Shown: positions 55,870-58,018 of the stretch, in pieces | Layout of the letters: each line of letters opens with the position of its first letter | Numbering within the stretch: the first letter of the stretch is position 1 | DNA from: Candidatus Woesearchaeota archaeon | GTDB lineage: Archaea > Nanobdellota > Nanobdellia > Woesearchaeales > UBA10216 | NCBI GenBank assembly: GCA_016192905.1 | Contig: JACPTG010000001.1 | Location: forward strand, 545,005-609,004 | Reading direction: 5' to 3' | Length of the DNA stretch: 64,000 bases | The notes under the pieces: model-generated | The model's input: only the letters and a program-made list of their open reading frames with translations | Databases searched by the model: none | What the model was told of the DNA's origin: nothing | Made by a program: the position numbers and the translations under genes

Positions 55870-56592
55870 ATGCTTCAGCTTATTGTCATCCTCCTGGTTG
55901 CAGGGCTTGCCCTGGGAGTCTACATTCATGCCATTTACGAACGCAGCAGCCCCAGCCCAAAAAAATATGTAAACCCTGCCCAGCTGTACATAAACCTGTG
56001 CGGGCCAATATTGTTTGGCAGCATAGCGTTCTTCATTATTTCAGAACTGCTAAAATTTCCAGAGCAGCCAATATTCGCGCCGGACAGGACCTTCCTGTAT
56101 GCCATGGCGCTCCTGGCTGGCTTAGGGTTCCTGGGCAGCGGAATGCACAGCTCAGCAAAGATGCTCTCAAGATTCATAGACAAAAAGCACCCGGGCTACA
56201 AGATAAACAGGTTCTACCACATATATGCAGGACACCTGATATGCTACACCAGCTTCATGCTCTTTGCATTGCTATTGTCAATGTTTGCGATAAAGCATCC
56301 CTACCCTGCTGAAGGAAGCAGCATCTTCTTTGCAGTAGCTGGAATGATATTCGGGGCACTCTGCATACATATAAGCAGGAAGCCCAGGGAACTGGTCAAA
56401 TTCTTCTGGCCCATAGCGGGGATAATGCTGATAACCTACCTAGTAATAGCATATCCCCACATGGATAGCATACTAAGGACTCCCACAGCCCTGTTCATAA
56501 CCTCGGCTGCAGCAACAATGCTTGGACTGATTGTAATACGAATTCTTCGCGCACTGGCCTCCACTGGACACTGGACAACCACCAGGGCATGA
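55870..56592 (+). CDS. Seven-TM hypothetical membrane protein
   Basis: 240 residues with about seven membrane helices (residues 3-20, 44-62, 75-93, 115-140, 150-170, 178-198, 208-228). Possible metal or heme ligands include His in GSGMHSSAK and YHIYAGHLICY. No family recognised. TATA sequence CTTAAATAG (55838-55846) lies 28 bases before the ATG, consistent with leaderless transcription. Confidence 0.75.
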   Translation: MLQLIVILLVAGLALGVYIHAIYERSSPSPKKYVNPAQLYINLCGPILFGSIAFFIISELLKFPEQPIFAPDRTFLYAMALLAGLGFLGSGMHSSAKMLSRFIDKKHPGYKINRFYHIYAGHLICYTSFMLFALLLSMFAIKHPYPAEGSSIFFAVAGMIFGALCIHISRKPRELVKFFWPIAGIMLITYLVIAYPHMDSILRTPTALFITSAAATMLGLIVIRILRALASTGHWTTTRA

Positions 56593-56712: not shown

Positions 56713-57033
56713 ATGAAGCTTTGGAAAACTATTTTAAACAGGCAGGCTACAACAGAGGAAATGGCCAAGGAAAACAGAAATTCAGGGGCATTTGATAAAT
56801 TTGAAAGCTTCCTGCCTGACAATTTTGAAGAAATCCTAAAGAAAATCAGAGGCAACTCAAAGGAGAGGCTTAGGAGGCTGGGAATAACCGAGGGTAGTAT
56901 AAAAGGCTTGAAGCTAAGGATTTTAGGGCAGGATTTTATGCTTTACCAAAAGCTGATTAAATCTTTCTTTGTGAAAGGGGATATCGAAGCCAATTTTCCT
57001 AAACAGGCTGAAGTTTTGCTTGCCATAAATTGA
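56713..57033 (+). CDS. Hypothetical protein overlapping the endonuclease gene
   Basis: 106-residue frame; residues 16-70 look protein-like (KFESFLPDNFEEILKKIRGNSKERLRRLGI). Its last 111 bases are antisense to the end of the LAGLIDADG gene, so at least that part may be a shadow. A true gene might end earlier or this may be a remnant. The 56593-56712 stretch before it shows no gene. Confidence 0.4.
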   Translation: MKLWKTILNRQATTEEMAKENRNSGAFDKFESFLPDNFEEILKKIRGNSKERLRRLGITEGSIKGLKLRILGQDFMLYQKLIKSFFVKGDIEANFPKQAEVLLAIN

Positions 57034-57651
57034 TATTCTATACTGGAGGGTTCGATGCGTCCCCCCCATTCGCTCCTTTACAACCGAACTTATCCCGAGC
57101 TGCAGCAATAGCCTTTGAATGCTAACTGCAAAATCGTAATCCTTTGTTATGAATCTGATTTCGTACAGCCTCTTCAGGATTGTCCCTTCCATAGCAAAAG
57201 CCTGTCGCAAATATGAAATTTTTACAGAATCAGGAGAATTGAAAACCCAGCCGGGAACATCCATTTGCTCATCAGATTTTGGAATATTCAGCACCTTGTA
57301 GAAAAACATGGCCAAGGTTTGGGAGTTAATATACACATCAAAAGCCCCTTTTCCCTGCCTTATGAAAATCCTGTTGCTGGGCGAGAACAACCTCTTTAGC
57401 AAAGATCCAAAGAGTATAATCTTTGCATATTCCTTTTTCTGACAAAAATAGATTCTCCTCAAATCCCGGATTAGGCTGCCGTCAGGCATAAGACCTGCCA
57501 AAGCTCCAACGTCCTCATCAAACACAAAAGGGTCTGCAAATTGTATAGTATTTCTTCCAGAAGGGTACTTTAAAACGAGCTTCTCATTTTTCCTTTCAAC
57601 CTTAAACACGCTGCTCAAATCCTTTTCTGATATACTCTGATACTGAGCCAT
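56923..57651 (-). CDS. LAGLIDADG homing endonuclease-like protein
   Basis: 242 residues from ATG 57651, supported by GGAGGTTAAAATG. Two LAGLIDADG-type helices: VGALAGLMPDGSLIRD (near residue 47) and SYLRQAFAMEGTILKR (near 145), each followed by an alpha-beta repeat (RIYFCQKKEYAKIILFGSLLKRLF; EIRFITKDYDFAVSIQRLLLQLGI). First-motif Asp and second-motif Glu could be the metal ligands. It lies 162 bases downstream of the intron-rich initiator tRNA on the same strand. Being free-standing, it could also act as a maturase or be unrelated to the introns. Confidence 0.85.
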   Translation of the reverse strand: MAQYQSISEKDLSSVFKVERKNEKLVLKYPSGRNTIQFADPFVFDEDVGALAGLMPDGSLIRDLRRIYFCQKKEYAKIILFGSLLKRLFSPSNRIFIRQGKGAFDVYINSQTLAMFFYKVLNIPKSDEQMDVPGWVFNSPDSVKISYLRQAFAMEGTILKRLYEIRFITKDYDFAVSIQRLLLQLGISSVVKERMGGTHRTLQYRISIYGKQNFSLFRKIGFDIPFHKERFNQLLVKHKILP

Positions 57652-57813
57652 TTTAACCTCCAAACCATTTGGATTTCCTTGGCCAAATTGGGAATTACAA
57701 TTTATCAGCCATGCATGAATCTCGCCATGGGAAAATGTATTTAAGTCATTGGGATGAACATGTCCAGTGTCCAGTGGGAAAGTCGGAAAACATACGAGAA
57801 AATTGGAAAACAA

Positions 57814-57964
57814 TAGCGGGGGCAGGATTTGAACCTACGACCTATGGGTCTCCCTGCACCGGAGTGCTTATGAGCCTTCCGAAGCTTCTAGGTCAAAAGC
57901 CTCATCGGGCACTCCTGGCTCTTAGGTTCACAGCCAGTTTAGACTGCAAAAGCCCTACCCCGCT
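57814..57964 (-). tRNA. Initiator tRNA-Met(CAU) with three introns
   Basis: The 151-base gene gives a 75-nt tRNA: acceptor AGCGGGG/CCCCGCT with A73, D-arm GGGC-AGCCAGGAGT-GCCC, anticodon arm ATGGG-CTCATAA-CCCAT, variable loop AGGTC, T-arm GTAGG-TTCAAAT-CCTGC. The A1-U72 pair and three G-C pairs beside the loop mark an archaeal initiator. Introns (gene positions): 14-44 (D-arm 13/14), 63-88 (29/30) and 97-115 (37/38). Genomic: 57921-57951, 57877-57902, 57850-57868. Introns one and two have perfect 4-bp central helices (TAGG/CCTA, CCGA/TCGG) between 3-nt bulges; intron three has one A-A mismatch and a GCAC-TCCG-GTGC hairpin. CCA is not encoded. Confidence 0.9.
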
Positions 57965-57987: not shown

Positions 57988-57997
57988 ATTTATAAAT
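57988..57997. promoter_or_regulatory. Palindromic TATA box shared by tRNA and EamA gene
   Basis: ATTTATAAAT reads the same on both strands. Its edges are 24 bases from the tRNA 5' end (57964, minus) and 22 bases from the ATG at 58019 (plus), the distance expected for start at +1 in both directions. Confidence 0.55.
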
Positions 57998-58018
57998 CTT
58001 TACCAGAAACTCCGCACG

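Follow-up and report, generated by a model that had tools for sequence, protein, structure and literature searches.

The tRNA genes of Thermoproteales (Pyrobaculum and others) contain multiple introns, up to three per tRNA (PMC4033280, PMC8450103), and those of the Asgard archaea Atabeyarchaeia and Freyarchaeia carry a very high intron load (PMC11291895). ARMAN-1 and ARMAN-2 combine tRNA introns with an epsilon2 splicing endonuclease, EndA (PMC12397907, PMC4033280), and disrupted initiators are known from Nanoarchaeum equitans, in which iMet is split, and Thermofilum pendens, in which it is permuted (PMC3218864). Outside tRNAs, the crenarchaeal cbf5 mRNA contains a bulge-helix-bulge (BHB) intron (PMC7714728, PMC2738675). 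While the alpha4 form of EndA is described as strict and restricted to canonical BHB motifs (PMC4090602, PMC6379350, PMC4033280), intron diversity goes with enzymes that have a Crenarchaea-specific loop (CSL) or an ARMAN-specific loop (ASL) (PMC4090602, PMC6379350, PMC12397907, PMC4033280).

In a window of 64,000 nucleotides, the whole stretch of DNA from an uncultured woesearchaeote that was analyzed, we identified an initiator tRNA-Met gene that is interrupted three times (Table 1). Like the genes of the Thermoproteales, it is interrupted by BHB introns both at the canonical site and elsewhere; however, the host belongs to another lineage, its EndA appears to be a lone alpha subunit without CSL rather than an (alpha-beta)2 enzyme with CSL, and relatives of the window gene reach five introns, whereas Thermoproteales genes reach three. 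Non-canonical sites and several introns per gene are also reported for Atabeyarchaeia and Freyarchaeia, an unrelated lineage. As in N. equitans and T. pendens, an essential initiator is disrupted and processed at BHB motifs, but their iMet is split in trans or permuted, whereas the present gene retains the normal order with three cis introns. ARMAN-1 and ARMAN-2 share with the host a small DPANN-type genome and non-canonical BHB introns; they differ in EndA, which here has about 183 residues, probably lacks ASL, and has no fused subunits. The first-pass annotation had pointed to Thermoproteales and ARMAN-type archaea with broad-specificity EndA as the precedent; this holds for the introns but not for the enzyme, as the host is a woesearchaeote (DPANN) with an alpha-type EndA for which no beta partner was found in the genome. 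Multi-intron tRNAs are thus already known; to our knowledge, the novelty lies in the lineage, in how many introns the relatives reach, in a lone EndA devoid of the loops and in a ligase gene that is itself interrupted.

We consider it very probable that the gene is functional, apparently the sole initiator of the genome, and that its three BHB introns are cut out by EndA and the exons joined by RtcB. Joining the exons yields a mature tRNA of 75 nt, AGCGGGGTAGGGCAGCCAGGAGTGCCCGATGGGCTCATAACCCATAGGTCGTAGGTTCAAATCCTGCCCCCGCTA, which has a complete cloverleaf with a CAU anticodon; ARAGORN calls the spliced 75-mer tRNA-Met(cat), with every stem paired. Archaeal initiator tRNAs are marked by an A1:U72 pair and by three G-C pairs at the end of the anticodon stem. 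The spliced product has both, A1:U72 as well as G29 G30 G31 / C39 C40 C41 (GGG CUCAUAA CCC), and so do the relatives. Because the introns break the gene, its unspliced form was missed in the search of the window, with no ARAGORN call and no Rfam match at the gathering threshold, only one weak Rfam piece of 14.9 bits. A template-free search, which combined BHB introns with a general cloverleaf score and was not given the isotype, placed its optimum at the same three introns (score 34.7, with the runner-up at 30.0). The first-pass annotation had assigned the gene to this place without naming a strand; the gene lies on the minus strand, and the coordinates proved exact; the intron lengths and joins that it gave likewise restore the full tRNA, and just over half of the gene is intron as it had stated (31+26+19 = 76 of 151 nt).

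Table 1. Features of the initiator tRNA locus (positions in the window)
Feature	Position	Strand	Details	Basis
Initiator tRNA-Met(CAU) gene	57814..57964	-	151 nt, CCA not encoded	ARAGORN on spliced form; template-free BHB/cloverleaf search
Putative archaeal TATA-like box TTTATAAAT (approximate)	57990..57998	-	about 30 nt upstream of tRNA 5' end	Read from sequence
Exon 1	57952..57964	-	13 nt, tRNA positions 1-13	
Intron 1	57921..57951	-	31 nt, site 13/14 (D-stem/D-loop border)	
Exon 2	57903..57920	-	18 nt, D-loop through position 29	
Intron 2	57877..57902	-	26 nt, site 29/30 (anticodon stem)	
Exon 3	57869..57876	-	8 nt, positions 30-37, with anticodon CAU	
Intron 3	57850..57868	-	19 nt, canonical site 37/38	
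Exon 4	57814..57849	-	36 nt, positions 38-73, T arm and 3' acceptor strand	
Putative free-standing LAGLIDADG endonuclease gene	56923..57651	-	242 aa counted from the ATG, next to the tRNA gene on its 3' side	Pfam LAGLIDADG_3, 5.4e-8

The 3-4-3 BHB geometry, in which each cut follows the second of the three bulge nucleotides, is exact in introns 1 and 2, in agreement with the earlier claim that these are perfect BHB introns at non-canonical sites, while intron 3 has three of the four central pairs. Intron 1 has a complete central helix (U8A9G10G11/CCUA; bulges GC^U and AG^A) and a long inner hairpin with nine inner pairs, without a continuous outer helix. In intron 2, the central helix (C24C25G26A27/UCGG; bulges UG^A and AA^G) is also fully paired and, as in the strict hBHBh' form, is flanked on both sides, by eight inner pairs and by a 2-bp outer helix (G22-C32, C23-G31). 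The central helix of intron 3 (CUCA/AGGG; bulges UA^A and AG^A) contains an A.A mismatch; its inner helix has 4 bp (GCAC/GUGC), and its outer helix forms only when intron 2 has been removed. As C32 is used both by the outer helix of intron 2 and by the central helix of intron 3, the two motifs cannot fully coexist, and since these introns compete for C32 and for the anticodon stem, they would probably be removed one after the other. The RNAfold model penalizes 3-nt bulges and ignores the enzyme, and the BHB central helices are absent from its minimum-energy structures of the precursor and of the partial splicing products, so that no firm splicing order can be derived from them. Together with the central pair missing from intron 3, these folds count against the splicing that we propose. 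The lengths of 19–31 nt, and the lack of an Rfam match in the window, rule out a self-splicing group I or group II intron.

We evaluated the pairing at splice borders in 88 initiator introns of relatives, the borders being set by exon similarity only and site 29/30 being excluded because it had been used to select genomes. The central helix was complete (4/4) in 53% of these introns at the true border, compared with 0–3% when the 3' border was slid by 1–4 nt; at least three of the four central pairs were present in 81% at the true border and in 5–33% after sliding, and the inner helix averaged 3.2 bp and 0.5–1.1 bp, respectively. BHB pairing at initiator splice borders exceeds chance and is seen only in the correct register.

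The host assembly comprises 1.43 Mb in six contigs and is 95% complete. Searching all 1.43 Mb with up to two mismatches allowed, we obtained a single match to the T arm and acceptor, and the D-arm and anticodon patterns matched only unrelated sequence elsewhere in the genome; three candidate second initiators (C1:487650, C2:98582, C1:59382) turned out to be coding or unrelated sequence. No intact second initiator, the situation that the first-pass annotation had raised against its own reading, was thus found in this genome, although at 95% completeness a missed second copy, or a missed EndA beta subunit, is possible. On the same grounds, one might suppose that the gene is a decayed pseudogene and that the working initiator lies in sequence missing from the assembly. 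We regard this as highly improbable, given that the exon stems are all intact, that a TATA-like box lies upstream, that BHB pairing is kept in the introns, and that relatives have the same architecture with one gene per genome. That the exons are joined differently, yielding another anticodon or placing intron 3 at 38/39, seems to us still less credible. This idea draws on the hairpin AGG-CUUUUGA-CCU of intron 2, which resembles a Lys UUU anticodon arm, and on an early round of template-free scoring, which ranked a UUU product first; moreover, 37/38 and 38/39 give an identical tRNA. However, the UUU product resulted from a too lenient intron score and gave way to the CAU product under the revised, balanced scoring, with a lead of 4.7 units over the nearest variant, the A1:U72 pair and the exon sequence are of the initiator type, and the alternatives are absent from close relatives. 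The core reading put forward initially, of a sole initiator with three BHB introns, two of them at non-canonical sites, is supported by the structure, by the genome-wide search and by many relatives.

Three introns in an initiator tRNA had been called striking; in this lineage they are unexceptional, with relatives having from none to five. When 84,980 genomes of bacteria and archaea were scanned for initiator genes interrupted by a BHB intron at 29/30, there were 41 matches, titled as Woesearchaeota (36), Nanoarchaeota (3), Aenigmatarchaeota (1) and 'Euryarchaeota archaeon SM23-78' (1), and threading placed two to five introns in nearly all of them. Altogether, threading of 67 distinct initiator genes from Woesearchaeota gave the same mature tRNA; the intron sites recur, and the intron sequences vary. 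Seventeen of the 67 have no intron, seven have one, 13 two, 17 three, ten four and three five, proportions that are not population estimates, as one set was selected for a 29/30 intron and another for an intact T arm. The three genes with five introns (L124, L130, L145) share the sites 15/16, 29/30, 37/38, 45/46 and 59/60. All 15 intact initiator genes found in the window's family contain introns (1–5), as do 12 of the 29 readable ones in the same order outside the family. ARAGORN identified the relatives' spliced products as Met(CAU), except for one odd gene of genome G014 and unrelated matches.

A member of the same family (G007; loci L115/L165) has introns 2 and 3 in nearly letter-identical form, lacks intron 1 and has two other introns; at the site of intron 1, L131 and L143 have close copies of it, and L110 has a more divergent one. 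This pattern of sharing indicates that introns come and go while exons stay. One initiator-like gene (L171, G014:C53:10300-10900) has introns at 7/8 and 15/16 and no CAU anticodon; it may be a pseudogene, an assembly fault or an unusual arrangement.

The genome's EndA, which the first-pass annotation had proposed to locate, is encoded by one gene for an alpha-type protein of about 183 residues in which the catalytic Tyr, His and Lys regions are conserved. It is a single catalytic subunit, collinear with EndA of M. jannaschii, which along with NEQ205 of N. equitans is the nearest free single-domain structure solved. No beta subunit or fused three-unit EndA was found in the host genome; a candidate beta subunit at C4:178430 (the only other PF01974 match, weak at E = 0.05, and recurring in three relatives) is a transketolase. 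EndA is present in 39 of 39 high-quality relatives, nearly always as a single gene. In an alignment of 30 Woesearchaeal EndAs with the A. pernix and S. tokodaii alpha subunits, a gap occupies the position of CSL, the extra residues of NEQ205 are missing from all 30, and the type of enzyme does not differ between genomes rich and poor in introns. ASL is likely to be absent as well, because the host EndA is collinear with the M. jannaschii alpha subunit. Judged by its sequence, then, the host EndA is not of the broad-specificity (alpha-beta)2 or epsilon2 type, and would be expected to form an alpha4 homotetramer. The view that alpha4 enzymes accept canonical motifs only is hard to reconcile with intron 1, where a continuous outer helix is missing. 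An alpha4 enzyme may cope without the loops, as most introns keep the 4-bp core and the 3-nt bulges, or else an additional partner may be involved.

The rtcB gene of the host (L183, G000:C2:112680-114070), which encodes the exon ligase, itself contains two perfect BHB introns, of 29 and 30 nt, both in active-site motifs, and its reading frame is restored only when both are removed. Removal of the first (helix AGGG/CCCT) restores MPDAHEG-Y-GFPIG and that of the second (TAGG/CCTA) restores GGIG-Y-DVNCG. Among 11 other interrupted rtcB genes, two of which were left unassigned, the first intron recurs in seven (eight with the host) and the second in four (five with the host), with 4/4 central pairs in all; 10 genomes of the family, including the host, have one or both. 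That the frame depends on two BHB introns at sites shared with relatives argues for BHB splicing outside tRNAs as well. In other family members rtcB is uninterrupted or has apparent inteins: the frames of G008, G015 and G044 span 913–1001 residues, with the gap near profile position 50 that is expected for inteins, and these putative inteins lie in the same region of rtcB as the BHB introns. Like cbf5, rtcB is a protein-coding gene with a BHB interruption, but it differs in that its product is the ligase and that it is interrupted twice, both times within a motif of the active site. According to a 2020 paper, cbf5 was the one additional case of a BHB intron so far reported from an archaeal mRNA (PMC7714728), and we found no report of BHB introns in rtcB in the open-access literature, which is not proof of absence.

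We propose that the initiator transcript, when expressed, would carry the three BHB introns, that the sole EndA detected, presumably acting as alpha4, would cleave every 3-nt bulge in vivo between its second and third nucleotides, and that RtcB would ligate the exons to give an ordinary initiator tRNA of 75 nt. We see the gene as part of a build-up of BHB introns throughout Woesearchaeota, which extends to other tRNAs and to rtcB itself. Our catalogue of host tRNAs, based on our own scoring, lists 41 loci, a lower bound; of about 40, 16 have no introns and about 24 seem to contain them, at least 15 of these being well scored, and several introns lie at non-canonical sites. Four loci (L036, L037, L039, L030) have introns of 11–22 nt in the T loop (site 59/60); their central helix consists of the conserved exon sequence UUCG and of CGAA at the end of the intron. 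A lone tRNA 3' half (L043, G000:C6:149465-149484; T arm and acceptor), with no recognizable 5' half upstream, is a candidate split tRNA. Besides an ordinary Arg-CCU tRNA (L039), a CCU anticodon also occurs in L038 (G000:C1:113122-113200), a tRNA that has G73, a long variable arm and an intron within its T loop.

The LAGLIDADG gene beside the window gene is tied to the initiator by position, and its role as an endonuclease is putative. Of 64 distinct Woesearchaeal initiator genes, 20, host included, have a LAGLIDADG homologue no more than 250 nt away, and nearly all of these homologues are on the 3' side of the tRNA or overlap it. We counted 21 such genes within 1 kb (126 kb searched) as against one beyond (228 kb; p ~6e-9); the 30 endA loci used as controls had none, and a two-intron Lys tRNA (L020) has a LAGLIDADG gene as its neighbor. 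A 15-nt motif, GTCCAGTGTCCAGTG, occurs at 56562-56576 (-) and 57762-57776 (+) as an inverted pair flanking the LAGLIDADG gene; the genome has 15 exact copies, with practically none expected by chance, and it is present in relatives too.

Two explanations for the origin of the introns may be considered. If the initiator gene is a homing target, the LAGLIDADG enzyme would cut intron-less alleles, and repair would spread the resistant intron-bearing allele together with the endonuclease gene. The clustering of these genes beside initiators, their absence from the endA loci and the neighbor of the Lys tRNA favor this explanation, which we nevertheless hold to be rather unlikely: intron and endonuclease presence are not significantly associated (18 of 50 intron-bearing and 2 of 14 intron-free genes have a LAGLIDADG neighbor, p = 0.19), the neighbors of the two intron-free initiators do not fit it, and some of these open reading frames look truncated. 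A link between LAGLIDADG genes and introns is therefore suggestive only. Alternatively, introns may have accumulated neutrally under permissive splicing and slow loss, with the endonucleases merely inserting at tRNA 3' ends; tRNA genes are common insertion sites, and relatives with the same EndA range from no introns to five. The repeated use of sites 29/30, 37/38, 15/16 and 59/60 suggests more than random gain, although the suitability of the exons for BHB pairing could explain the recurring sites, and on balance we think neutral accumulation the probable origin. A broader proposal, in which a loop-less single-subunit EndA sustains an intron-saturated splicing system with up to five introns per initiator and a BHB-split rtcB, and in which LAGLIDADG homing makes the introns the resistant state, we regard as doubtful.

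Since standard tRNA finders miss such genes, genomes of this kind look as if they had no initiator tRNA. With five introns, a tRNA gene would surpass the maximum of three that we found in published reviews. The LAGLIDADG association offers a concrete and testable hypothesis for the spread of tRNA introns, and EndA and its substrates are small enough for in vitro work. If multiple and non-canonical introns are, as a rule, paired with a loop-bearing EndA, this lineage appears to break the rule. Furthermore, a ligase mRNA that must itself be cut and ligated constitutes a bootstrapping loop, through which the cell might sense its splicing capacity; should the proposal of an intron-saturated splicing system be correct, these archaea would need the ligase to make the ligase.
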